From Nitrospirota bacterium (lineage in GTDB: Bacteria; Nitrospirota; Nitrospiria; SBBL01; JAADHI01), in contig JAJDBU010000032.1 of the NCBI GenBank assembly GCA_029261195.1, positions 1 through 55,056 on the forward strand: a stretch of DNA of 55,056 bases, written 5' to 3'. The notes below the pieces were generated by a model that did not search any database, was not told the DNA's origin, and saw nothing but the letters and a program-made list of their open reading frames with translations. Each line of letters starts with the position of its first letter. Position 1 is the stretch's first letter. Shown piece after piece: positions 34,989 to 48,917 of this stretch. Both the position numbers and the translations under genes were made by a program.

Positions 34989-36875
34989 CTATATTGTTTT
35001 CAAATGTTGACACCGGAATAATTCAGCATAGTAGCCTTTCCCGGCAAGCAGCTCCTTATGTGTCCCATTCTCTATATTTTGTCCATTTTTTAAAACGATG
35101 ATCTGATCATAACTTTCCATTTCATCAAACTGATGAACAATGACAAAACAGGTTTTTCCTTTTTGGAAGTTTCGCATAGATGATTGAATGAATCTCGCAG
35201 ATTCGGCATCTACCGCAGAAGTCGGTTCATCTAGAATCAGGATTGAGGGACGTCGAATAATTGCGCGGGCAAGCCCAATCCGTTGTCGTTGCCCTCCGGA
35301 TAAGGTCGCCCCTTGTTCGCCCACAAGTGTGTCATAACCCTCAGGAAGTTCATTGATGAAAACATCCGCGTGGGCTTTTCGGGCAGCTTCTTCAATCACT
35401 GCTTGTGTAGCGTCTATTCTGCCGTACGTGATATTTTCCCGAATCGTTGTTCCTAAAATAATCGCTTCTTGCAATACGAGCCCAATTCTACGTCGGAGAT
35501 TTTTTCTTTTATATTTTTTGATATTAATTCCATCAATCAAAATTTCACCATTCTGAGCTTCATATAAACGAAGGAGAAGTTTTGCAATGGTCGATTTTCC
35601 AGATCCGGAAGCCCCGACAAGCGCGATGCGCTGACCTGGAGAAACCTCGAATGAAACATTCTTTAAGACCGGTTTATTTTTATCGTAGGCAAAAGAAACA
35701 TCTCTAAATACAATGGCCCCATGCAGTTCTTTTACTCTAATCGGGTTGGCTTGGTCTGAAATTTCAGGTTCCATTTCCAAGAGATCTGAAATGCGTTCTG
35801 CACCTGCCATCGCCTTCGATATTTTTGAAGACAACCTTGGAAGTTTTCTTAAGGGACCGTACATTTGTTTTAGATAAGCCATGAAAATCAAAAGATCTCC
35901 AGGGCTCAATAAACCTTTTTTTACCTGTAGTGCTCCAAAAAAAATCGCAAGCACTGTTCCCAATGCGGTGATGACCTCCATGACACGAGTTGTTCTCGCA
36001 GTTAATCTGACAATATGTATGGATTCTTTGAGGGTTTCCTTAGAATCCTCCTCAAAACGCCCTAGTTCATAGCCTTCTCGCGCATACGATTGCACAAGCG
36101 GAATCATTGTGAGCAGTTCGTTGATCCGAGAGGCCACATTCCCCTCTTCTTTTCTTTGTTTTTTTGCTCTCTTCTTGATTCTTTGATAAGAAGAAACCAA
36201 CAGATAAATCAGAGGGGGGAAGGTTAAAAGAACAAGAAATGCAAGCTGCCAATTAAGAAAAAGCATCACAACAAACATGCCAATAATCTTTAAGAAATGG
36301 GATGAAAGCGTAAGGGCTGATTCGGAAAAGGTATCTTTCAGTAGCTTTGTGTCCCCGCTCACCTTCGTGATTAATTCGCCAGATTTGGAACGGTTGTGAA
36401 AGGAGAGTGAAAGCCGTTGAAGGTGAGCAAAAAGCTCTATCCTCAAAATATGAACCAGATGAAACCCTACTTTTGAAGTAATGAATATTTGAAAATAGGC
36501 AAAAAACCCCCTCAAAGCCGCAATCAAAAGGATGGAAATCGATAAGACTCCCAAAGAGAATAGGGGCCCTTTTTGGATAATAGATTCCAATAGCGCAAAA
36601 TTTTCAGGAACAGGTTTTCCCAGAAGGATATAGTCAAAAATAAGTTTTATAGGCCATGGAGCGAGAAGTTCTGCTCCCGTGAAACAGACCATACAGAGGA
36701 TAGCGAAAAAGATCTCGCCTTTGACCTCACTGAAGTGCTCAACTACTATTTCCTTAAAAAGTGGATGTCGTTTGTTTTTCATTTTCTTATTCCACAGTTC
36801 CTGTAGCATCTTGTATGAAATTTTTGCAATATAATCTTGTTCATCTAATGTCTTTAAAAACTCTGCCTCCCTCAT
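34989..36875 (-). CDS. MsbA-type ABC exporter (fused permease-ATPase)
   Basis: A 628-residue half-transporter with six membrane helices (about 55-330) and one nucleotide-binding domain: Walker A GASGSGKST (421-429), Q-loop Gln469, signature LSGGQ (525-529), Walker B ILILDEPT (545-552) and switch His581 in VIVHQF. It resembles lipid A/lipid-linked-oligosaccharide flippases and would work as a homodimer exporting a glycolipid or glycan. About 30 N-terminal residues precede the usual MsbA start, so MKNKRHPLF at 36782 is an alternative start. Its position between kinases/glycosyltransferases and an outer-membrane barrel supports a glycan substrate. Confidence 0.92.
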   Translation of the reverse strand: MREAEFLKTLDEQDYIAKISYKMLQELWNKKMKNKRHPLFKEIVVEHFSEVKGEIFFAILCMVCFTGAELLAPWPIKLIFDYILLGKPVPENFALLESIIQKGPLFSLGVLSISILLIAALRGFFAYFQIFITSKVGFHLVHILRIELFAHLQRLSLSFHNRSKSGELITKVSGDTKLLKDTFSESALTLSSHFLKIIGMFVVMLFLNWQLAFLVLLTFPPLIYLLVSSYQRIKKRAKKQRKEEGNVASRINELLTMIPLVQSYAREGYELGRFEEDSKETLKESIHIVRLTARTTRVMEVITALGTVLAIFFGALQVKKGLLSPGDLLIFMAYLKQMYGPLRKLPRLSSKISKAMAGAERISDLLEMEPEISDQANPIRVKELHGAIVFRDVSFAYDKNKPVLKNVSFEVSPGQRIALVGASGSGKSTIAKLLLRLYEAQNGEILIDGINIKKYKRKNLRRRIGLVLQEAIILGTTIRENITYGRIDATQAVIEEAARKAHADVFINELPEGYDTLVGEQGATLSGGQRQRIGLARAIIRRPSILILDEPTSAVDAESARFIQSSMRNFQKGKTCFVIVHQFDEMESYDQIIVLKNGQNIENGTHKELLAGKGYYAELFRCQHLKTI

Positions 36876-36890
36876 TTCAGGTAAAAGGCT

Positions 36891-37022
36891 CTAATCAATC
36901 ATAAATTCAGGGGTTTTGGGTGCTTCACAGTGGGGGAAGATGGAACCAGATTCAATGATGAGCTGGCCTGATGTTTGCGTTGCTCCTTCCAGCTCATTCG
37001 GGTAATTGATGCAGAAGGTCAA
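36891..37022 (-). CDS. Candidate small ORF before the ABC exporter
   Basis: A frame of 43 codons from TTG (37022) reads with natural-looking composition (LTFCINYPNELEGATQTS, then QLIIESGSIFPHCEAPKTP, ending FMID). It stops 15 bp before the exporter start and begins 17 bp after the kinase stop, filling a gap in an otherwise compact operon. Two Cys and several acidic residues are present. No clear Shine-Dalgarno or ATG supports it, so it could be a remnant of a longer gene. Confidence 0.3.
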   Translation of the reverse strand: MTFCINYPNELEGATQTSGQLIIESGSIFPHCEAPKTPEFMID

Positions 37023-37038
37023 ACAATATTTTTGTCAC

Positions 37039-38409
37039 CTATTTTTGAAAGCATAGACCCTCCATTGCCTTATTGACAATCAGTGGAACCTGTTCAGACC
37101 ACTTAGTTTCTTGATGCTGTACATGGTAAAGAGCGACTTTTAACGCCGCACAGGCGTAGTTAACAGAAAATCTCTTTCTCCAGATGTAAGGAACTCTTGA
37201 AAAATAATCTTCAATAAAGATTTCCGACATCGTCTTAATCTTCGACTGGGAGATAGAGGATAGGTTAGGTAGCATTTCCATCCGAACAAAAAGACTTGCA
37301 GCGTCAAACACGGGATCACTCAGGGCAAAACTATCGAGGTCAATGAAAGTCAAGCCTTTCTCACCCAAAAATATATGATCAACCTTCATGTCTAAATGGG
37401 TGGGGCATGTCGAAATCACCTGCATTTCTTTCTCGATTTTCTTCATGAGTTCCTCGACACTTCCTCGAAGATTAGGAAGTGCCCACTGGATAAAATCCCC
37501 GGCTTTCTTCGCTCGAGATAAGGTTCCCTCAGGAGGTCTGTGTGCAGACAAATCTACCTTTCTCTGATGAAATGCGGCTAGAGCGGCAGAAGACTTTAAG
37601 ATTGCGGCATGGGCATTATTATCTTCTAATATAATATCCTCAAGCGATTGGCCCGCTGCACCTTCCAGAATTAATGCGCGAAGGTCCTCGAAGTAAGCAA
37701 GTGGTTTTACTGTGGTAAATCCACTTTTTCCAGAAGAAAATTGTAAGTAAAGCTCCTTAAGTAGATCGAAGGTCTTTCTGCCACCTTCATCACGATAGAC
37801 CTTGATAAAAAAACACTTTTTTTGGTACTCCTGAGTCGAAGACTCCACGGAATCAACTTCATATCTGAGCGTCACTCCTTCTTGAGGTCGATACCGAACT
37901 GTTTCGACTCGGCATTGATCCATTTTCCAATTTCCTTTGCCAAACTGGTCTAGCAGGAATTTTTCAAGTTGAGGTGGCGGACCTGTGATTAAGAGGGGTA
38001 AATTATTAAGGTATCGATCTTGAGGATAGACTTGGACTGTCATCTTCAAATCGGAAAGATATGAAATTGGTTCAAAAGGCAGTAATGCATCAGGGATATC
38101 TGACCAAGGGTGAACAGCTATAAGTTTCTTGTAAACGCGATTCGCACGCTCACCCGGGTATATGACCCCGGTCAACCAAATATTTTTCTTTACATCGGAC
38201 TTTTTATCCACAATCTCCAATTGATACAAGACGATGGAGCGTAATTTTCGACGATATCTAAATCGCTCCACTTTGCAATTGGTGATATCGTAATTGGCTC
38301 CCCCGAAAGGTTGAAGATGTTTCCGAAAGGCTTCCAACATCAAATCAGAATTCCATGCGATCTGAAGTTGAGGAAGAACTGGATCTTTTGGGAAGAGACT
38401 CTTACTCAT
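37039..38409 (-). CDS. APH-fold phosphotransferase with duplicated N-lobe element
   Basis: A 456-residue kinase-like protein of the aminoglycoside phosphotransferase fold. The catalytic loop reads THLDMKVDHIF (His338, Asp340), with His345 in place of the usual Asn, and the metal Asp lies in FIDLDSF (357/359). In the N-terminal half the element CKVERFRYRRKLRSIVLYQLEI (split at residues 45-66) recurs as CRVETVRYRPQEGVTLRYEVD at 166-186, suggesting an internal duplication of N-lobe strands. Kinases of this fold beside glycosyltransferases usually phosphorylate sugars or lipids; true aminoglycoside resistance is unlikely. The substrate is unknown. It lies 112 bp downstream of a second APH-fold kinase. 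Confidence 0.8.
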   Translation of the reverse strand: MSKSLFPKDPVLPQLQIAWNSDLMLEAFRKHLQPFGGANYDITNCKVERFRYRRKLRSIVLYQLEIVDKKSDVKKNIWLTGVIYPGERANRVYKKLIAVHPWSDIPDALLPFEPISYLSDLKMTVQVYPQDRYLNNLPLLITGPPPQLEKFLLDQFGKGNWKMDQCRVETVRYRPQEGVTLRYEVDSVESSTQEYQKKCFFIKVYRDEGGRKTFDLLKELYLQFSSGKSGFTTVKPLAYFEDLRALILEGAAGQSLEDIILEDNNAHAAILKSSAALAAFHQRKVDLSAHRPPEGTLSRAKKAGDFIQWALPNLRGSVEELMKKIEKEMQVISTCPTHLDMKVDHIFLGEKGLTFIDLDSFALSDPVFDAASLFVRMEMLPNLSSISQSKIKTMSEIFIEDYFSRVPYIWRKRFSVNYACAALKVALYHVQHQETKWSEQVPLIVNKAMEGLCFQK

Positions 38410-38520
38410 GCCTTACCCTCTGGTTCTCGCCTGAAAATATGAGTTTGAAGTCTATACATTGATTCTCTCCATGAATTTCAAAAAAGAATCGAAACGCATA
38501 TTCAAAATATAGTGACTTGA

Positions 38521-39549
38521 TTAGGATTTCACATCCAATCTTTGTTCACAAACTTCCAGTAATACCTCCGTAAAGGGGCAGCGTTCTGGAAATAAGGTAC
38601 TCAAGTAGATATGCCTCACCAATGTAAGCGTTGCGTAGGTCTGAACCGCTATCCGAGTTTTCTCACCCGACAATTCTACAAAACATTCCTCCATAGATTG
38701 CTCAAGTGTCTGCAAGGCACATGGGTCGCCAAATGTACGGATACTCTGTTCGATAATATGGCCGATAAAGTTCCCAATGTCGAGTCCAGGATCACCCTGA
38801 CAGTAGAGATCAAAATCGATAAGGTAGAGGCGTGATTCATCCACAATCACCTGATCGCTGTAAAAATCCCGATGAACCCCGGCAACCTCAGGCATCGGTA
38901 CAGCCATACCAATTCGGTCCGCCGCATCAAGTACCCTGTCGATGCGTGATGACCATTTTGGATATTTCATGGCAACTTTTGGTAAATGTTCATGTAGAAT
39001 CCGGAGTTCATCTGCCATTGAGTGACTACGCTTTGTTGGCACACCCGCTTTGTGAAGCTTGTGAGCGGCTTCTGCAATTTGTCTGACGAGCAATTCACTG
39101 CCTGCTTGGGTTAGCAAATGCGTTGCTTCTGTTCCCGGCATCTTAAGTTGCATCCACATTCGAAAATTCGGGACAATTCCAATGGGTTTCGGCACAGAAA
39201 TTCCGTCAAAACAACTAGATTGAAAGCCGGCATCCCATAACAATTTCAGGAGACGGTAGGCAGATTGACCAGAACTGCGTGACCTTATTTTCCCAATGAG
39301 TGTAATTGCCTCTTGTTCACTGCTTACCTCCTCCGCACTACTAAGGTCATATTCGATTAAACAACGCCGACCAGGTTTATATCGAATGACCCGGATGGCT
39401 TGAACACGGGTGTTTCCGTGTTCCAATTCCTGAAAACTTAGACAATGATCAAATGCTCTTTGTACATCATCAGGATTAAGGGCATCAGAAAGCTCAGGCA
39501 TCTTGGGGTCATTGCGTACTCCAAAACGATCAGAAACTTCAATTGTCAC
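38521..39549 (-). CDS. APH-fold phosphotransferase
   Basis: A 342-residue single-copy relative of the adjacent kinase. N-lobe strands read RVQAIRVIRYKPGRRCLIEYDL; the catalytic loop is GVHRDFYSDQVIV (His226, Asp228, with Gln233 at the usual Asn place) and the metal motif is YLIDFDLY (Asp245/Asp247). Both kinases deviate at the catalytic-loop Asn, consistent with one subfamily. The gene overlaps the downstream end of a GT4 gene by 11 bp, tying it to glycan assembly. Likely roles are phosphorylation of a sugar, polyprenol-linked intermediate or choline/ethanolamine-like head group; sequence alone does not decide. Confidence 0.82.
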   Translation of the reverse strand: MTIEVSDRFGVRNDPKMPELSDALNPDDVQRAFDHCLSFQELEHGNTRVQAIRVIRYKPGRRCLIEYDLSSAEEVSSEQEAITLIGKIRSRSSGQSAYRLLKLLWDAGFQSSCFDGISVPKPIGIVPNFRMWMQLKMPGTEATHLLTQAGSELLVRQIAEAAHKLHKAGVPTKRSHSMADELRILHEHLPKVAMKYPKWSSRIDRVLDAADRIGMAVPMPEVAGVHRDFYSDQVIVDESRLYLIDFDLYCQGDPGLDIGNFIGHIIEQSIRTFGDPCALQTLEQSMEECFVELSGEKTRIAVQTYATLTLVRHIYLSTLFPERCPFTEVLLEVCEQRLDVKS

Positions 39550-40807
39550 GCTTGTCCCCCGGGTTTAAAATCAATGATTTCGCAAGATTTGTGACATGCT
39601 CTGCGTTGTGATCCCAGGTATAATTTCTGTGAACCTTTTCGCTTGCGGCTTTTCCCATGGCTGTTCGTAAAGTGGGCTCAGAGAGAAGACGATCACAAGC
39701 AGATTGGAGCGCATTAATGTTACCGGGAGGATAGAGTAAGCCCGTTTTATTATCTTCTAGCACTTCAGCAATCTGGCCTACATCCGAAGCCACAACGGGT
39801 ATCCCACAAGCCATGTATTCAAAGAGCTTAAGCGGAGAAAAATAGAAAGCGTGATCTAATTGAGGATAGGGAGCCAAGGCAATACTAAACTCTTGTATCA
39901 GCCCTACAACTTGTTTATGGGGTAATGCACCTGTAAAAACCACTCTTTTTGAGAGCTTCTTTTCTTTAAAATCTTGTTCCAATGTTTCACGTAAGGGGCC
40001 TTGGCCCACAATCACCATTTGAAGATTTTTAAACTGCTTCAATAAATGCTCCAGCAGATGAGGTAAAACATTTACGCCATGCCACGGACGCAATCCTCCT
40101 ACAAAACCCAAGATCGGACCTTCCCCTAAACCCCAATCACTTCGAACCTTTTGATTGGCAGGGCCGGGTTTAAAAACCCTTGGGTCAACACCATTTGGAA
40201 TCACACTAACACGCTCCGCATCGGCACCTTCTGCGACAACGTAGTCGCGCAATGACGATGAAACAGTGACCACATGCTCGGCTTCTATCAGACCCCAGCG
40301 CTCTGACTGAGAGGACAGTTCTCCCAAACCGCTTGCATTTTGATAGGTTGTATTTTCCATGGAAAGAGGGGCATTAAGTTCAAGTATCCTCGGAATATTG
40401 AGTTCACGAGCTAACATCGCCCCGGCAATGCCATAGAGGGATGCACGTTCATAAATAAAATCAGGAGGGTTTTTCTGAAACTTTTGGACCAGGGCAGCAA
40501 CCATCTCCTGATTATAGAGTACCTTGCGTAGCTCTCTTGGGAGTATATTGCTTACCCCTAAGACATGATTGAAGGATTCCAAAGTACGTTGAGTGTTAAT
40601 CAGGTGCTGGCTTGCCTCAATGTGTAAGACCTCTGCCTCTATTTCAGCCGGTAATTCCCAGGGTGATTTATTGAGTATTTGTGCCGCTAATACGACAGAA
40701 TGACCCATCCGGCTCAAGGCGGCAATAAGTTCGCGGACATGAACAGAGGCCCCTTTTCTACCCAATGTCGGGATGCCTGTATCAGAGCAGATATAGAGAA
40801 TTTTCAT
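39539..40807 (-). CDS. Glycosyltransferase family 4
   Basis: A 422-residue GT-B retaining glycosyltransferase. The N-terminal acceptor domain begins KILYICSDTGIPTLGRKGASVHVRE (in pieces, residues 2-26), with a flexible glycine loop. The C-terminal donor domain has VSVIPNGVDPRVFKPG, GFVGGLRPWHGVN, the EX7E-type FEYMACGIPVVASDVGQ and a HNYTWDHNAEH tail. It transfers a sugar from a nucleotide-sugar donor to a lipid- or glycan-linked acceptor in the cytosol. It overlaps the APH kinase gene and follows a second GT4 gene by 27 bp. Confidence 0.92.
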   Translation of the reverse strand: MKILYICSDTGIPTLGRKGASVHVRELIAALSRMGHSVVLAAQILNKSPWELPAEIEAEVLHIEASQHLINTQRTLESFNHVLGVSNILPRELRKVLYNQEMVAALVQKFQKNPPDFIYERASLYGIAGAMLARELNIPRILELNAPLSMENTTYQNASGLGELSSQSERWGLIEAEHVVTVSSSLRDYVVAEGADAERVSVIPNGVDPRVFKPGPANQKVRSDWGLGEGPILGFVGGLRPWHGVNVLPHLLEHLLKQFKNLQMVIVGQGPLRETLEQDFKEKKLSKRVVFTGALPHKQVVGLIQEFSIALAPYPQLDHAFYFSPLKLFEYMACGIPVVASDVGQIAEVLEDNKTGLLYPPGNINALQSACDRLLSEPTLRTAMGKAASEKVHRNYTWDHNAEHVTNLAKSLILNPGDKRDN

Positions 40808-40833
40808 TTTGTTACTCCAAGACCTCGATGCCT

Positions 40834-42060
40834 TTAGGTTTTTTCTGAAAGGAAATAGTTTTTTAACGTCCGGACATTTTCAATCACATTAAAATCGCTA
40901 TGTACTTTTTCAGAAGCCGCTTTCACGAAATTATTTCTAAGCATTTCGGACCCTAATAAGATATCAATCGCATGAGCCAACTCATCTGGATTCTTTTCTT
41001 TGACAAGAAAACCACTTTGCTGATCACTTATCATTTCGGGAATCCCAGTAACCTTTGTAGAAACAATTGCTACGCCTAGAGCCATCGCCTCAAGAATTAC
41101 CGTCGGTAGACCATCTCTATTTCCATCATCACCGACAATGCAGGGCAGAGCAAAAACAGCCGCCTTTTTGAGGATTTTCTTCACCTCTTCCTGAGGCCTT
41201 GCTCCCATTAATTTGACTTTCTCCTTTAACGAATATCGGGCGATATTTTTTGCCAGGGGATTTCTTTCCTCGCCTTCCCCAATAATGAGACAGCGAAAGT
41301 CCCTTCCTTTTTTATTCAAAATATTGCAGGCCTGAATCAAGTACTCAAACCCTTTTTTGGGAACCAGACGCCCGACACCGACAATCAAGCCGGGTTCTTT
41401 TTCTTCTTCCGATCCACAAAATTGGTCTAAATCAATCCCATTATAGAGTCGAATCACTCGTCCTGTTTTTTCTTCAGACTTGAGACATTCATCAAGGTAG
41501 CGCTTGTTAAAGTCGCTTACCGTGACCACAAACCGCGCATGAGCCATTTTTTCGGCCAATGAGCTTTTATCGACGCTCTCATGATAGATATCTTTCGCGT
41601 GGGCGGTAAAACTATAGGGAATGCCGGTGATACGGCTGACAGTTGAAGCGGCTGTCGTTGCCCATGTCGCAAAGTGGGCGTGTATCAGATTAATACCGAG
41701 CTTTTGGATAAAGGGCGCGATCATGGCCGATTCGATGAGCGTCCTGTAATCCGCCTTCGATAAATCCCCGGAAAGGATCTCCCGTCCAATCAGACAAGGA
41801 CTTGCGTTAAGGGAATCCAGAAATTTCATTGACGACGCTTCGTTGGGAATTAATCTCACCGGGGGCATGTAATAAATCGGTACTTTCAGCTTTGCAGTTT
41901 TTTGATGGATAAGCTCCTCATCAGCCGATCTTTGGGCAACGACCGTCACATCAATCCCTTGCCGTTGAAGTTCCTGCATTTCATTCACAACAAAAGTCTC
42001 TGAAAGCCGGGGATATCGTTTCAGAAAATAACAGACTTTAAATGGAGTTGGTTTATTCAC
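40834..42060 (-). CDS. Glycosyltransferase family 4 (WcaL/colanic-acid-like)
   Basis: A 408-residue GT-B glycosyltransferase. It opens VCYFLKRYPRLSETFVVNEM, a signature of the WcaL/AmsK-like branch acting in exopolysaccharide assembly. The middle holds HAHFATWATTAAS and IPYSFTAHAKDIY, and the donor domain holds VIRLYNGIDLDQF, GVGRLVPKKGFEYLI and LEAMALGVAIVSTKVTGIPE. It follows the COG4671-like gene by 8 bp. Confidence 0.93.
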   Translation of the reverse strand: MNKPTPFKVCYFLKRYPRLSETFVVNEMQELQRQGIDVTVVAQRSADEELIHQKTAKLKVPIYYMPPVRLIPNEASSMKFLDSLNASPCLIGREILSGDLSKADYRTLIESAMIAPFIQKLGINLIHAHFATWATTAASTVSRITGIPYSFTAHAKDIYHESVDKSSLAEKMAHARFVVTVSDFNKRYLDECLKSEEKTGRVIRLYNGIDLDQFCGSEEEKEPGLIVGVGRLVPKKGFEYLIQACNILNKKGRDFRCLIIGEGEERNPLAKNIARYSLKEKVKLMGARPQEEVKKILKKAAVFALPCIVGDDGNRDGLPTVILEAMALGVAIVSTKVTGIPEMISDQQSGFLVKEKNPDELAHAIDILLGSEMLRNNFVKAASEKVHSDFNVIENVRTLKNYFLSEKT

Positions 42061-42068
42061 GCATGCTC

Positions 42069-43289
42069 CTATATTCCGTTTTCTGATTGAAGTAATTTTT
42101 GGGCCTCACCGAAAAGTCTTCCCAGGGCATGACTCGCGCTTACAGCGCCATTCAAATTGATGCCAACTTCATTTGGAGGCACCGGCTGCCACGAGCCAAG
42201 CCCTGCATGCACTTCATTGGCAAGGCGTGAGGGGTTTAGGTCTTTAGGGTGGATCATCCGGACAAGACCTAATGCGGAAAAACATTCCGCCCTAATGAGT
42301 TGTTCAACACGAGGTTTAGTCCGAGGAACGATGATGGCTCGTTTATTCAGTGTGAGTATTTCGCAAAAAGAATTATAGCCCCCCATTGATATAACAAGAT
42401 CAGCAGCATTAAGATAACTTAACATGTCGGGTGTAAAATCAATTAACGTTAGCGGAAGGTCTTCGGACTGATAAGACTGAAGTTTTTTGCTGTTTTCCTC
42501 CGACATCATCGGTCCCGTCACGACTAATGAATCAAAGTTCAATCTCCCGGCCTGACCCATTGAGGAAATCATGCCCAGATAAGTTTCTAAAGTGCTGAAT
42601 CCATCTCCCCCTCCACCGGCTGTTACAACAACCAACTGCTCGGTTTTCATTTTCAAACCCATTCGAATTTCATTTTTCGGATGGAGCCCTCTAATATTTC
42701 GCCCGATATAGCCACAAGAAATTATTTTTTTTCCAACGCGACTTGAAAGCCCATACTCCTGAACCGGGTCATAAATTTTCTGAGACCCGTACAGAAAAAT
42801 AGTATCATAGATTTCTTCAAGTAAGGCGTACACACCGCTTTTTTCCCAGGCTGCTTTTGTATCCAGAGGATCATCCTCAATATCCCTCATACCCAGCACC
42901 AGCTTTGTGTGCGGAGACTCAGATTTAAGATAGTGAAGCGATCTCAATATTTCGCCACCAATGCCTCTTGGTGCCTTATCGACCAAAAAAATATCAGGCT
43001 TATAATGTCTAACTGTTTCAAAAATTATGTTTTCACGCATTTCTGATACCGTGTCAAATGGAACCTTAAGCGCTCCGGCACAATACTCACCATCCGTACG
43101 TTTAGTGATGGAGGGTAGCTTAATATAATCGAGCTGATCCGGTATTTCATACGAGTGAGATTGCGTTGATCCCGTGAGAAGGAGTTGTTCTGCAAGGGGA
43201 AAATCATTAGCAACCTGCGTGGCGATAGACAAGGATCTACGTATGTGCCCCAGACCATAGGAGTCATGGGAATAAATCAAAATTTTCAT
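42069..43289 (-). CDS. Full-length COG4671-like (MurG-type) glycosyltransferase
   Basis: A 406-residue GT-B protein of the predicted-glycosyltransferase group COG4671. The N-domain reads KILIYSHDSYGLGHIRRSLSIA and IFLVDKAPRGIGGEI; the C-domain has VVTAGGGGDGFSTLETY, the donor-site SMGGYNSFCEIL and an IVPRTKPRVEQLIRAE stretch like MurG. The ATG at 43289 is preferred over a GTG at 43295 because it begins exactly at the family start. Two shorter paralogues of its N-domain lie directly upstream. Confidence 0.88.
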   Translation of the reverse strand: MKILIYSHDSYGLGHIRRSLSIATQVANDFPLAEQLLLTGSTQSHSYEIPDQLDYIKLPSITKRTDGEYCAGALKVPFDTVSEMRENIIFETVRHYKPDIFLVDKAPRGIGGEILRSLHYLKSESPHTKLVLGMRDIEDDPLDTKAAWEKSGVYALLEEIYDTIFLYGSQKIYDPVQEYGLSSRVGKKIISCGYIGRNIRGLHPKNEIRMGLKMKTEQLVVVTAGGGGDGFSTLETYLGMISSMGQAGRLNFDSLVVTGPMMSEENSKKLQSYQSEDLPLTLIDFTPDMLSYLNAADLVISMGGYNSFCEILTLNKRAIIVPRTKPRVEQLIRAECFSALGLVRMIHPKDLNPSRLANEVHAGLGSWQPVPPNEVGINLNGAVSASHALGRLFGEAQKLLQSENGI

Positions 43290-43379: not shown

Positions 43380-43937
43380 TCATGTAACCGCAGAATACCT
43401 ACTTGAAGTACTGTGGCCTTGCATCGTCTCGACATCATGACCTTCTTCGCAATGAATCTCCGATGTTGTTAAGTCAGGAGACGAGGCCATTCTGTTTTTG
43501 GAAGGAAATACATGACGAAGTGTCGTTGTATTACCCTCGATTTTGTGTAATCGAATGACGAGTTTTGTTTCAGGACGCTCAAGCTTAAGGCGATCCATTA
43601 CCTTAGTCATCTCTCCCCGTGCTTCCATTGAGGACTCATCCATAAAAACGACATCAGGATCGAAATGTCTTAGCGCATTCCATATGATCTCTTCTCGAAG
43701 AGAGGTAGTGGGCACTGAAGGCAAACCGGAATATCTCTCTTGAAAGGGCATATCCATCCCGGGAAGTTTAATCATATCGAGTTTATGAGGTAACTTCGTA
43801 TTACGAGGCTGCGGCATTCCTGATACCAGTAGTTGCGTGGCCTCGGGAAATTCAACTGCAACTTGTTCCGCACGAGTGATTGCCTGCCGCAAGTGACTCA
43901 CTCCATGGTAATCATAAGAATAATGAAATACTTTCAA
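43380..43937 (-). CDS. Short COG4671 N-domain paralogue (form A)
   Basis: A 185-residue protein homologous only to the N-terminal domain of the neighbouring full-length enzyme: FHYSYDYHGVSHLRQAITRAEQVA, LVSGMPQPRNTKLPHKLDMIKLPG, DPDVVFMDESSMEARGE and ERPETKLVIRL. The whole nucleotide-sugar-binding half is missing. After the homology it continues with a separate ~40-residue tail (LRHVFPSKNRMASS and onward), part of which is shared with form B. It starts at TTG with GGAGGAG six bases upstream, so it appears actively translated and not decaying. It cannot be a complete glycosyltransferase; an acceptor-binding, scaffold or partner role is inferred. Confidence 0.72.
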   Translation of the reverse strand: MKVFHYSYDYHGVSHLRQAITRAEQVAVEFPEATQLLVSGMPQPRNTKLPHKLDMIKLPGMDMPFQERYSGLPSVPTTSLREEIIWNALRHFDPDVVFMDESSMEARGEMTKVMDRLKLERPETKLVIRLHKIEGNTTTLRHVFPSKNRMASSPDLTTSEIHCEEGHDVETMQGHSTSSRYSAVT

Positions 43938-44242
43938 GATTTTCTCCTCCAGATTGAGCGAATTTTCAAGAACCGCTTCCTCTTCACTCCGTTAAATTAT
44001 ATGGGATTTTTTTCCCAAAAACTATATTACAACTATACTTCCCAGGCCGGAGTGTGTCAATGGCCTTTCAAGAAAGAACGAATTATTCTAATTAAAAAAC
44101 TATTTTACTGATATTTAGATCAGTATTGCCTTACTAGGACAGCATGAGACGATTTTTTTGAAGGATTACAGGGGCTGATTGCTAACCCTGGAGAAGAGAT
44201 CTAAATACAACGAGTGCCACTGACACGGTCCAGACTCAGTAC
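43938..44242. other. AT-rich intergenic region with promoter-like and palindromic elements
   Basis: No gene is seen. On the minus strand a TATAAT box (43996-44001) with TAGTTT 17 bp upstream (44019-44024) could drive form A; the spacer is filled by TGGGA/TCCCA arms separated by six T (44002-44017). A second perfect palindrome, ACTGAT/ATCAGT with a 6-base loop, lies at 44107-44124. Both are candidate operator sites. Confidence 0.45.
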
Positions 44243-44722
44243 TCATACCGGCATCAAGGCATAAGACGAAGCTGGTGCCCCCCTAGCTATCCGGGCATGT
44301 CGAGGCATCATTGCCGAACTTCTAATATTATTTATTCCAGTGATGAGTTTCGTTTCAGGACGTTCAAAATGAAGGTAATCCAGCGCAAGGGATATCTCTC
44401 CCCGGACTTCGATTAAGTCTTCATCTATAAAAACGATATCGGGGTCGAAGCGTTTTACTGCATTTAAAATAATCACTTCACGCAGAGGACGGAGCTGAGG
44501 GGAAGACCCTAAGCCATCTCCCCCTTTGGCAGACCTTTCTATGCCGGGAAGTTTGATCATGTCGAGCTTAGAAGGTAATTTCGTCTGATGTGGCTGAGGT
44601 GTACCCGTCACGAGAAGCTGTGTGGCCTCCGGGAATTCAAACGCGACTTGTTTTGCAAGATTCAGTGTCCACTGCAAATGTCCCGTTCCGTAATAATCAT
44701 AAGCATAATGAAAGACTCTCAA
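44243..44722 (-). CDS. Short COG4671 N-domain paralogue (form B)
   Basis: A 159-residue relative of form A and of the full-length COG4671-like enzyme: FHYAYDYYGTGHLQWTLNLAKQVA, LVTGTPQPHQTKLPSKLDMIKLPG, DPDIVFIDEDLIEVRGE and ERPETKLITGI. It also lacks the C-terminal sugar-nucleotide domain. Its tail (PRHARIARGAPASSYALMPV) shares with form A an RH pair followed at the same 8-residue distance by ASS, a feature absent from the full-length enzyme. It starts at TTG with a perfect GGAGGT about eight bases upstream. It is the first gene of the locus, behind a sigma54-type promoter. Confidence 0.72.
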   Translation of the reverse strand: MRVFHYAYDYYGTGHLQWTLNLAKQVAFEFPEATQLLVTGTPQPHQTKLPSKLDMIKLPGIERSAKGGDGLGSSPQLRPLREVIILNAVKRFDPDIVFIDEDLIEVRGEISLALDYLHFERPETKLITGINNIRSSAMMPRHARIARGAPASSYALMPV

Positions 44723-44790
44723 AATCTATACCTCCAAATTAATGATTTCCCTTTATATTCTATTATTTAGTTTTATTATTATTTATAGTC

Positions 44791-45216: not shown

Positions 45217-47478
45217 ATGAAAATGAGATTCAATCCTAAAAAGAGCTTTAGAGTAGAGATTTTTTGCTACATTTTATTCGGCGCTCTCTTGCCGGCATTG
45301 ACGATTCTTATGATTTTTTCACAATACCTCACCGCTAACCTTCACACTGAATTGAAAAACCATGTCGAAAGAATGCAGAAAGTTGCCGCAGCGGATCTTG
45401 AGCAAGTGATTACCCAGTTTAAGTTTAATATCGGAGAACAATCCAAAGCGGATTTTGTAGCAGCACTCCTCGGAGCTAATGAAGATGTCGGCGATAGTCT
45501 GGAGAGACTTGCATCGCATCTCAAGCTAGCCGCACATGTCGAGACTGCCTCTCTTTATAAAAGCAACGGAATCAAAGTGGCTTCGACGGTTCAAGGCTCA
45601 CTTGGAGAAAACCTGAACCTTGATTTGTTAGACAAAATCGAGGCAAAGAAGGAGGATCGCATCCCTGTCCTTGTTCAAATCAGCACTGAAAAAGACGTAG
45701 GATTTAGAGTGGATGCTTACGCACCGGCGACAGAGCCGTTTTACAAGTATCTCATGGGTATCCTCCATGAGCATATCTTCATTGGCAGACGTTTTATTAC
45801 GGATCTCAAAAATAAAACCGGCCTTGAGATTGCCCTCTTTGTTCAAAAAAAATCCTTTCTCTACACAACGGACACCATGCCCGTCATTGATGCCGCAAGC
45901 TATCGCACACTGATTGAAACAAAAGACGTGACAACCCAGAATAGTCTTGCCGTTGCTGATGTCATCTACCACACCGTGCTCATTCCCATGATAGATGAAA
46001 CGGGAAACGTTCAAGGTGCAATTGGATTATTAGGATCTGAAAATGTCATCGAAGAGAGCAAGGCCTTTATAGAGAAGATTTCCTTGATCGCACTCTTAGG
46101 CATTATTTCTCTATCCTTTCTGATCAGCCATACTTCCACCAGACGCGTCATCAAACCAATCATGGAGGTTGTCGCCTCACTGCGGAAAACAGCCACAGGT
46201 GACTTGAGTCAAAGAATAGAAGTCCGCTCTCAGAATGAGATCGGAGAATTGGCCGACTCTTTTAATAAAATGACGGAGGACTTGCAGCATTCAAGTGAAG
46301 AACTCATCACAATGAAAGATTACACTGACAATATTGTTAAAAGCATGGTGGACACCCTCATTGTTGTGCATCCCGACGGGAGTATCAAGACGGTTAATCA
46401 GGCCACTGTCAATCTCTTGGGATGCAGCGAAGAAGAGCTGAAGGGAAAACCCTTGCAAGACATTATTGAAGACGAGACCATTGTCAGTGAAGATTTTCAA
46501 CAGACCTTAAGCGCCGGTTTCGTCAGCAATTATGAATTGACTTACAAAACACGCAGCGGCGTGCTGGTTCCCATGCTCTTTTCAGGCTCGGCGATGAAAA
46601 GCAAGACCGGAGAAATAGAGGGCATCGTCTGCATTGCCAGGGACATCACAGCACGAAAGGAGATAGAAAAAGAGGCGAAACGGATTCAGGGACAACTCAT
46701 CCACGCAAACAAAATGACATCACTGGGTACGATGGTGTCCGGTATCGCCCATGAAATCAATAACCCCAACAATGTGATGATGTTCAATGCCACCCTAGTT
46801 GCTGAGGCCTGGCAGGATGCGCTCCCGATTCTCAATGAATATTATCAAACACAAGGAGAGTTCTCTCTCGGGGGGCTCCCTTTTCAAGAAATGCGGGAAC
46901 TCTTACCGGACTTGACCTCAGCAATGTCGGACAGTTCGCATCGCATTAAAAATATTGTCGGGAATCTTAAGGGTTTCGCACGGCAGGATCAGTTGGGGAT
47001 GGACAATATCATCAATGTAAACAAAATTATCAAAGCGGCGATTGAGCTCATCAGCAATCAAATTAAGAAAACCACCCAAAAATTTTCCCTCCGTTGCGAG
47101 GAAGACTTACCTGAGATTAAAGGAAATGCCCAGCAGCTGGAACAGGTGATGATTAATCTCATCATTAATGCCCTTCAGTCGCTTCCCGATTCAAGCTGCG
47201 GCGTCAGCGTCTCCACTGCCAGTGACAAAAAAAACAATGCGATCCTGATTAAAGTCTGTGACGAGGGCTGCGGGATGAAAGAGGAAGTGATTGAGCGCAT
47301 CATGGAACCTTTCTATACCACCCGACTCGATTCGGGGGGGACGGGATTGGGACTTTCCATCTCCTATTCCATCATTAAAGAACATCGGGGGACCATAGAT
47401 TACCAGTCCAAAATCGGCAGAGGGACAAGAGTTTCCCTTACGCTCCCAGAGGGCAAACCAGCTGAAAATGAAAAATAA
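45217..47478 (+). CDS. Membrane sensor histidine kinase (periplasmic sensor-HAMP-PAS-HATPase)
   Basis: A 753-residue kinase. Helix 1 (~14-40) and helix 2 (~286-304) enclose a ~245-residue periplasmic sensor of double-Cache appearance (HVETASLYKSNGIKVAST, VLIPMIDETGNVQGAIGLL). HAMP follows (305-358), then PAS (~362-478, VHPDGSIKTVNQA), then the phospho-acceptor His512 in GIAHEINNPNNVMMF, and the ATPase with N-box NLIINAL, DEGCGM and GTGLGLS. The HEINNPN type and the insertion after it resemble the NtrB/DctB-like kinases that pair with sigma54 activators. It lies 11 bp before such a regulator. The ligand is unknown; small organic acids are common for this sensor fold. Confidence 0.93.
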   Translation: MKMRFNPKKSFRVEIFCYILFGALLPALTILMIFSQYLTANLHTELKNHVERMQKVAAADLEQVITQFKFNIGEQSKADFVAALLGANEDVGDSLERLASHLKLAAHVETASLYKSNGIKVASTVQGSLGENLNLDLLDKIEAKKEDRIPVLVQISTEKDVGFRVDAYAPATEPFYKYLMGILHEHIFIGRRFITDLKNKTGLEIALFVQKKSFLYTTDTMPVIDAASYRTLIETKDVTTQNSLAVADVIYHTVLIPMIDETGNVQGAIGLLGSENVIEESKAFIEKISLIALLGIISLSFLISHTSTRRVIKPIMEVVASLRKTATGDLSQRIEVRSQNEIGELADSFNKMTEDLQHSSEELITMKDYTDNIVKSMVDTLIVVHPDGSIKTVNQATVNLLGCSEEELKGKPLQDIIEDETIVSEDFQQTLSAGFVSNYELTYKTRSGVLVPMLFSGSAMKSKTGEIEGIVCIARDITARKEIEKEAKRIQGQLIHANKMTSLGTMVSGIAHEINNPNNVMMFNATLVAEAWQDALPILNEYYQTQGEFSLGGLPFQEMRELLPDLTSAMSDSSHRIKNIVGNLKGFARQDQLGMDNIINVNKIIKAAIELISNQIKKTTQKFSLRCEEDLPEIKGNAQQLEQVMINLIINALQSLPDSSCGVSVSTASDKKNNAILIKVCDEGCGMKEEVIERIMEPFYTTRLDSGGTGLGLSISYSIIKEHRGTIDYQSKIGRGTRVSLTLPEGKPAENEK

Positions 47479-47489
47479 GGAGAACAGTA

Positions 47490-48917
47490 GTGACCTTAAA
47501 AGACCGTAATTCGATTCCAGTTCTCTTAATAGATGATGAACCACAGCTCTTGCTCAGTTCGAGTACGATTCTCCGGTCCTCCGGAATCAGGCAGGTGATC
47601 ACCATGAATGACAGCAGGAAGGTCTTGCCCCTCTTGGCCAGGGAGGAAATCGCCGTCATTGTGCTGGACTTGCGGATGCCCTACATATCCGGAACGGAAT
47701 TACTCCCTCAGATCACCCAGGACTACCCTGACCTTCCCGTCATTGTGATGACGGCATTAAACGAGTTGAATATCGCAGTGGAATGCATGAAGTCAGGGGC
47801 ATTTGATTATCTCGTAAAACCGGTTGAAAAGAGCCGTTTTGTCTCCAGCATCAAGCGAGCCCTGGAACTCCTCGCATTGCGCAAGGAGTTATCCCTGCTT
47901 AAACAGTCTTTACTTTCCGGAAAACTGGCGCACGAAAACGTTTTTTCCTCCATTATTACAAACAGCAAGCCCATGCGGGCCATTTTTCAATATGTGGAAT
48001 CCGTCGCCGGAACAAAACAATCTGTTTTGATCGGTGGAGAAACCGGTGCCGGAAAGGAATTGATCGCCCAGGCAGTTCACAGACTGAGTGGACGAAAAGG
48101 TGAATTTGTTGCCGTCAACGTGGCCGGATTAGACGACGCCATGCTGGCCGATACCCTCTATGGGCATCGGAAGGGGGCCTTTACCGGTGCGGATAAAAAC
48201 AGGGAAGGACTGGTGGCCCGAGCCTCAGGCGGGACGCTGTTTCTTGATGAAATCGGCGACATGAAGGAATCATCACAAATTAAACTCCTCCGTTTATTGC
48301 AGGAAGAGCGGTATTACCCCCTGGGATCAGACATCCCGAAGCAGAGCGATGTGCGGATCGTTGTCGCGACGCATCAGGATCTGCCTCATTTGATAGAAAG
48401 CGGAAATTTTCGTAAGGATCTCTATTACCGACTGCGTGCCCATCAGGTTCAGTTGCCCCCATTGCGTGAACGCCGTGAAGACCTTCCCTTACTCGTCGAT
48501 CGTTTTCTGGAGCAAGCCGCCGAATCAATGGGAAAGAAAAAGCCGACCCCCCCGCCCGAGCTCTTTATCCTTTTGTCCACCTATGCCTTTCCAGGAAACA
48601 TACGGGAGCTTCAAACGATGGTATTTGATGCCGTAGCGCAGCATCAGTCCGGAATTCTTTCAATGCAGAGTTTTCAAAAGATTATCGGTCACGGGTCTTC
48701 ATTAACGCGGACGGATTTACCCGATGAAATCCATGAAGCCATTTTTTCATTGGACGACTCCGCACGTTTTCCCACCCTAAAGGAAGCAGAAAAATATTTG
48801 ATATCCAAAGCAATGGAACATGCAGACGGAAACCAGGGCGTTGCTGCAAGGCTCTTAGGCATCACACGGCAAGCCCTCAATAAACGTCTGACCAGAAAGG
48901 CCATGAAATCAGGATAA
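47490..48917 (+). CDS. NtrC-family sigma54-dependent response regulator
   Basis: A 475-residue regulator. The receiver domain (1-125) has Asp15-Asp16, phospho-site Asp60 (VIVLDLRMP) and Lys110. The AAA+ domain (150-380) has Walker A GETGAGKE (183-190), the sigma54-contacting GAFTGA loop intact (229-234), Walker B FLDEIGD (251-257) and arginine fingers near YYRLRAHQVQLPPLRERRED. A Fis-type HTH (440-470, NQGVAARLLGITRQALNKRL) binds DNA. It starts at GTG with AAGGAG seven bases upstream. Together with the kinase it forms a two-component pair divergent from the glycan locus, whose first promoter is of -24/-12 type. Confidence 0.95.
   Translation: MTLKDRNSIPVLLIDDEPQLLLSSSTILRSSGIRQVITMNDSRKVLPLLAREEIAVIVLDLRMPYISGTELLPQITQDYPDLPVIVMTALNELNIAVECMKSGAFDYLVKPVEKSRFVSSIKRALELLALRKELSLLKQSLLSGKLAHENVFSSIITNSKPMRAIFQYVESVAGTKQSVLIGGETGAGKELIAQAVHRLSGRKGEFVAVNVAGLDDAMLADTLYGHRKGAFTGADKNREGLVARASGGTLFLDEIGDMKESSQIKLLRLLQEERYYPLGSDIPKQSDVRIVVATHQDLPHLIESGNFRKDLYYRLRAHQVQLPPLRERREDLPLLVDRFLEQAAESMGKKKPTPPPELFILLSTYAFPGNIRELQTMVFDAVAQHQSGILSMQSFQKIIGHGSSLTRTDLPDEIHEAIFSLDDSARFPTLKEAEKYLISKAMEHADGNQGVAARLLGITRQALNKRLTRKAMKSG

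Follow-up and report, generated by a model that had tools for sequence, protein, structure and literature searches.

The genome of a Nitrospirota bacterium (assembly GCA_029261195.1) carries, alongside a full-length glycosyltransferase of the COG4671 type, four short genes whose products match only the N-terminal part of such an enzyme and which appear to have arisen by deletion of the C-terminal domain. It is our tentative view that they are non-catalytic paralogues kept as modulators of exopolysaccharide synthesis. Two of them, A and B, lie next to the full-length gene (F) in the window, that is, the whole stretch of 55,056 nucleotides that was analysed (contig JAJDBU010000032.1); the other two, C60 and C55, are on other contigs. 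The genes and their signals are the following.

44243..44722, minus strand: short form A, 159 aa, TTG start, N-domain-like over residues 1 to about 133, followed by a tail predicted to be disordered
44731..44735, minus strand: Shine-Dalgarno GGAGG of A, 8 nt before the TTG
44297..44302, minus strand: RH codons of A (residues 141-142), invariant in the four short forms of the genome
43380..43937, minus strand: short form B, 185 aa, TTG start, first gene 3' of the palindrome promoter
43946..43950, minus strand: Shine-Dalgarno GGAGG of B, 8 nt before the TTG
43512..43517, minus strand: RH codons of B (residues 141-142)
42069..43289, minus strand: F, full-length COG4671-type GT-B glycosyltransferase, 406 aa, with a PF04101 C-domain
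34989..42060, minus strand: cluster downstream of F, with two GT4 glycosyltransferases, two APH-like kinases and an MsbA-like ABC exporter
C60:130586-131065: short form C60, 159 aa, 61% to A, with the same TTG and GGAGG context as A
C55:80365-80847: short form C55, 160 aa, 34% to A, ATG start

Read along the minus strand, A comes first, then B, F and the downstream cluster, most of whose families also follow the F orthologues of genomes G005 and G007 and, in part, that of the Gammaproteobacterium Ga0077554. B and F point in the same direction across a gap of 90 bp in which no terminator was found, and they would be co-transcribed from the promoter of B. Residues 1 to about 140 of F are matched at 39% by A and 37% by B, while A and B are 53% identical to one another and stand at 43-50% to the P1-type full-length relatives described below. 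Neither A nor B gives any Pfam match, and the PF04101 domain of F is missing from both. The first-pass annotation, which had proposed this homology, the want of a sugar-nucleotide domain and a strong Shine-Dalgarno before each TTG start, is borne out on all three points, GGAGG standing exactly 8 nt ahead of the start in A and in B alike; both reading frames are open, with no frameshift or stop. Divergently from A, at 45217-48917 on the plus strand, lie a sensor histidine kinase and a sigma-54 response regulator, the latter scoring below the cut-off of the PEP-CTERM-box regulator model that it matches.

Two short forms had been counted at first; both are real, and the genome holds four. C60 and C55 are solitary genes, C60 behind an apparent metal ABC transporter operon and C55 amid cytochrome c-like genes (neighbours named by eye), and neither adjoins any COG4671 enzyme. 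The proposed search for short-form relatives, across 396 genomes of the phylum and a collection of genome contigs, returned full-length relatives only, beyond six short forms: A, B, C60, C55 and two from other genomes, G002c and G003b. Two further candidates were rejected, G293 as its gene runs off the contig end and G017 as it reads as a frameshifted copy, and the viral contigs searched held no short form. Orthologues of A, B, C60 and C55 were found in none of the other genomes examined, the same genus included.

The tail that A and B were thought to share survives in part. Both carry RH and ASS; the former (R141-H142) occupies one gapless column in all four short forms, and the latter occurs in A and B only. 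The similarity between the tails of A and B, taken alone, lies within chance (shuffle test, p 0.18; after RH, p 0.86). The tail is nevertheless credible because the third copy, C60, links to both A (p 0.002) and B (p 0.0015), although beyond RH the tails are weakly similar at best (A-C60, p 0.02). Given this common tail column and the likeness of the C-terminal ends of A and C60 (ALMPV and ALMPA), the short form is judged to have been already common to A, B and C60 at their split. The tail feature had also been described as absent from the full-length protein, which is true of F; P1-type linkers, however, match the start of the tail in A and C55.

It is these linkers that point to the origin of the short forms. 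Relatives in the same family carry two adjacent full-length paralogues, P1 (about 449 aa) and P2 (about 386 aa), and P1, unlike F, has an extra linker of some 20 residues after the DIED motif (SAMMHRQ, NAMIARE, HAMMVRE), which the tail start of the short forms (AMMxR) resembles significantly in A (p<0.02) and C55 (p<=0.002) and, individually, not significantly in B and C60. Judging from these matches, the supposedly private tail is partly inherited from the P1 linker; the nearest two P1 relatives belong to the Nitrospirota MAGs OFTM336 and OFTM308. In the tree, A, B and C60 form a group (100/99) that, with C55, joins the P1 clade (96/96), G002c falls inside P1 and G003b inside P2, C55 and G003b being on long branches, so that their exact placement is less sure. 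These positions imply at least three origins of N-only forms in this family of genomes, two of them represented by the following genes.

L038:7262-7822, minus strand: G002c, a P1 gene that has lost its C-domain through an in-frame deletion
L039:6945-7691, plus strand: G003b, a P2-type N-part of about 244 aa that adjoins a full-length P2

G002c lies directly upstream of P2, behind the palindrome discussed below, and an intact P1-P2 pair is present on another contig (L043). The 40 residues at its end form a gapless alignment with the last 40 of the full-length G002a (score 76; shuffles -2 +/- 7), and the C-domain of G002c has therefore been deleted in frame; at the joint, linker DNA runs into C-terminal DNA, and the linker and the C-terminal region hold similar DNA at the junction. 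G003b, an independent short form from a genome lacking DUF6502, has its GLGN loop degraded to GFEN. That relatives might be broken full-length genes had been named at the outset as a sign against purposeful short forms, and for one independent relative, G002c, this is what was found; A, B, C60 and C55 show no significant C-terminal match. Whether their tails, like that of G002c, represent the conserved C-terminus of P1 was also examined, and this was not supported, B against G006a giving p 0.03 among many tests and the rest being at or near chance. The other such sign, remnants of the C-domain downstream, was sought around all four copies in six frames (tblastn with eleven C-domains), and beyond F itself nothing was found (best E 0.09). 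We infer that A, B, C60 and C55 arose by deletion of the C-domain, an event that can be followed in detail for G002c only.

What remains of the enzyme in the short forms appears to be less than a whole domain. The AlphaFold model of A has a five-stranded core with pLDDT mostly above 90, opens directly with a strand and without an N-terminal membrane helix, and falls below 50 over residues 134-159. As modelled, F has an N-domain that reaches residue 185 or so, with a last helix (residues 381-403) presumably closing it. A and B, which had been taken for stand-alone N-domains, are therefore incomplete ones, and the short forms stop short of the domain's final strand and helices and lack the C-terminal helix. 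A fold search of the PDB gave mostly GT-B enzymes as best matches, MurG among them, and otherwise generic Rossmann proteins; no solved structure matched the N-part by sequence. The enzyme motifs have eroded as well. The GLG[HN]xxR loop (GLGHxRR) and the [VI]DK motif (VDK) are kept by nearly all full-length proteins of the set; the short forms have GTGHLQW (A), GVSHLRQ (B), RVEHLQW (C60) and GLNNLQR (C55) at the loop and IDE, MDE, IDD and VQA, respectively, at the VDK position. Sugar transfer by the short forms alone is very unlikely, and acceptor binding is doubtful because the domain is incomplete and the acceptor-side GLGHxRR is degraded.

The short forms are most likely under purifying selection. 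Their omega is about 0.35-0.38 (about 0.38 among A, B and C60), and a test against omega = 1 excludes that value (2dlnL about 31 with these three copies and about 49 with four), as against 0.06-0.10 for the N-domains of full-length enzymes; the constraint is real but relaxed, about four to six times weaker than on the enzymes. This holds at a dS of 0.85-1.02 between A, B and C60, with frames intact and the Shine-Dalgarno and TTG conserved. The earlier assertion that A and B are not random truncations is upheld by the start, Shine-Dalgarno and tail that they share with C60, by an omega of about 0.38 and by frames free of stops and frameshifts. The marks of a pseudogene are lacking in the short forms, which show no stops, frameshifts or remnants and an omega not near 1.

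Regulation adds a further dimension. Upstream of B are found

44002..44017, no strand assigned: palindrome TGGGA-N6-TCCCA, also present upstream of C60, C55 and DUF6502 genes
44032..44060, minus strand: sigma-70-like promoter of B, TTGACA-17-TATAGT (11/12), with a half operator TGGGAAG ahead of the -10

with the half site inside the promoter of B and the complete palindrome 15 nt downstream of its -10. C60 and C55 are preceded by an exact TTGACA-N11/12-TGGGA-N6-TCCCA, in which the palindrome covers the -10 box, 11-12 nt after TTGACA; upstream of A there is no palindrome (best 11/18). In the same family, TTGACA with the palindrome also stands 5' of DUF6502 (PF20112), DUF5666 and beta-barrel genes and precedes the full-length COG4671 gene of G005 (G005a), the palindrome without a perfect TTGACA is found at the COG4671 gene of G007 and at G002c, and in the Gammaproteobacterium Ga0077554 a COG4671 and a DUF6502 gene both lie behind the palindrome. 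Sites of this kind were noted at L046-L053, L081-L115 and L126-L151, besides 44002-44017 in the window. The promoter-palindrome occurs in 27 of 396 genomes of the phylum, and 25 of those 27 encode DUF6502, which is present in 61 of the 396 overall and in 36 of the 369 palindrome-less genomes (Fisher p about 1e-20, a value inflated by related genomes that are not independent). Kinship between genomes does not explain the positional link, 22 of the 43 promoter-palindrome sites lying 19-31 nt before a DUF6502 match. Among the genomes with DUF6502, 36 lack the exact site, and many of these belong to a single family within the same class.

Because B, C60 and C55 are behind the palindrome that also precedes DUF6502 genes, they look co-regulated. 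On the strength of these positions, the palindrome probably acts as an operator of DUF6502, and the simplest reading would be that DUF6502 is an autoregulating DNA-binding protein with B, C60 and C55 in its regulon. A literature search turned up no paper naming DUF6502 or COG4671 or describing this operator or regulon, DUF5666 being merely mentioned. At L095-L104 the start codons of DUF6502 follow about 3-5 nt behind a palindrome holding the -10 box, and the transcripts may have little or no leader. In families f33 and f36 many DUF6502 profile matches contain one in-frame stop, perhaps where the profile reaches 5' of the true start. Two transposase-like frames, named by eye, lie between the DUF6502 and the DUF5666 gene of G006 (L041:4911-5661, plus strand). 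A palindrome over the -10 box ties the uncharacterised DUF6502 to exopolysaccharide and secreted-protein genes across the phylum, and the rule makes DUF6502 testable as a transcription regulator, whatever the short forms do.

According to the reading we tentatively favour, a P1-type full-length COG4671 glycosyltransferase would have lost its C-terminal donor-binding domain, and duplication and dispersal of the gene would then have given A, B, C60 and C55. These would have retained the start and Shine-Dalgarno of the COG4671 and DUF6502 genes, and B, C60 and C55 the promoter-operator too. The genes are most likely still translated, and purifying selection on them, though weakened, is most likely real. 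Their products, predicted to fold into part of a Rossmann N-domain trailing a loose tail and incapable of sugar transfer, might act as modulators by occupying, say, the acceptor or the partner surface that F uses, with B expressed from one promoter together with F; the modulator role itself is a guess. Somewhat less likely, they could be slowly decaying relics, C-domain-deleted P1 copies spread by duplication and now being lost, whose constraint reflects avoidance of misfolding or toxicity, or a function lost recently. Their sporadic occurrence, long branches, eroded motifs and an omega several times that of the enzymes fit such decay, as does the same loss-prone pattern in the independent G002c and G003b; the truncated form shared by A, B and C60 at a dS of about 0.9-1.0, the intact frames and conserved Shine-Dalgarno and TTG, the rejection of omega = 1 and the operator retained at C60 and C55 speak against it. 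We prefer modulators to fading copies, by a small margin, because frames are intact, translation signals and operators are kept in several copies, and EpsF offers a precedent; the lack of orthologues elsewhere, selection weaker than on the enzymes, the incomplete domain with its degraded acceptor-side motif, A without a palindrome and the solitary C60 and C55 count against modulators.

The split or multi-subunit glycosyltransferase first proposed, in which A or B would lend its N-domain in trans to the C-domain of F and confer a second acceptor specificity, is improbable. B does directly precede F in the same orientation, and isolated GT-B domains can assemble in trans as active dimers (PMC10937113); yet F is complete with its own N-domain, the genome has no orphan C-domain (the C-domain profile matches F and one weak, distant protein only), two of the copies have no COG4671 enzyme nearby, and the short forms want the last N-domain strand and helices, the C-terminal helix and the GLGHxRR and VDK motifs. 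It is also quite unlikely, if a little less so, that they are small Rossmann proteins repurposed for a function unrelated to COG4671 enzymes, such as ligand sensing in a DUF6502 regulon. The positions of C60 and C55 beside apparent metal-transport and cytochrome genes and the promoter common to DUF6502, DUF5666 and beta-barrel genes would suit this; no residue pattern for another ligand was seen, and A and B head a glycosyltransferase cluster. To return to modulators, a broader and unlikely version would have the family repeatedly deleting the C-domain, leaving dead N-half glycosyltransferases behind a DUF6502-type operator that tune the COG4671 exopolysaccharide step in trans, which would amount to a family of N-domain-only regulators that has a regulon to itself. 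Should the short forms prove functional, they would be natural GT-B half-enzymes kept in a non-catalytic state, and a handle on the regulation of glycosyltransferases by their own fragments.

Among the closest known systems are the COG4671/GT28-like GT-B enzymes themselves (F, P1 and P2), to which the short forms are homologous over the first 140 or so residues and with one of which B shares cluster and orientation; A, B, C60 and C55 differ in having neither the PF04101 C-domain nor the last N-domain elements nor the two motifs. In split GT28 enzymes of the Alg13/Alg14 type, the N-terminal half is a separate protein, as here; the present genome has no separate C-terminal half and possesses a complete fused enzyme, and the model of A is without an N-terminal membrane helix. 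Separate N- and C-domains of GT-B enzymes have been engineered to assemble in trans into active dimers, a case that resembles ours in the separateness of the domains and differs in being engineered and in having both catalytic halves present (PMC10937113). A further parallel is EpsFN, an N-terminal fragment of the exopolysaccharide rhamnosyltransferase EpsF of Streptococcus thermophilus 05-34, attributed to loss of the C-domain, and overexpression of the EpsF N-terminal fragment lowered exopolysaccharide mass about 5-fold and changed chain length (PMC7023835). EpsFN, too, is an N-domain-only fragment of an exopolysaccharide glycosyltransferase; it is a GT4 protein of 87 aa, whereas the Nitrospirota short forms are a set of four paralogues that have diverged, possess promoters of their own and show selection that can be measured.
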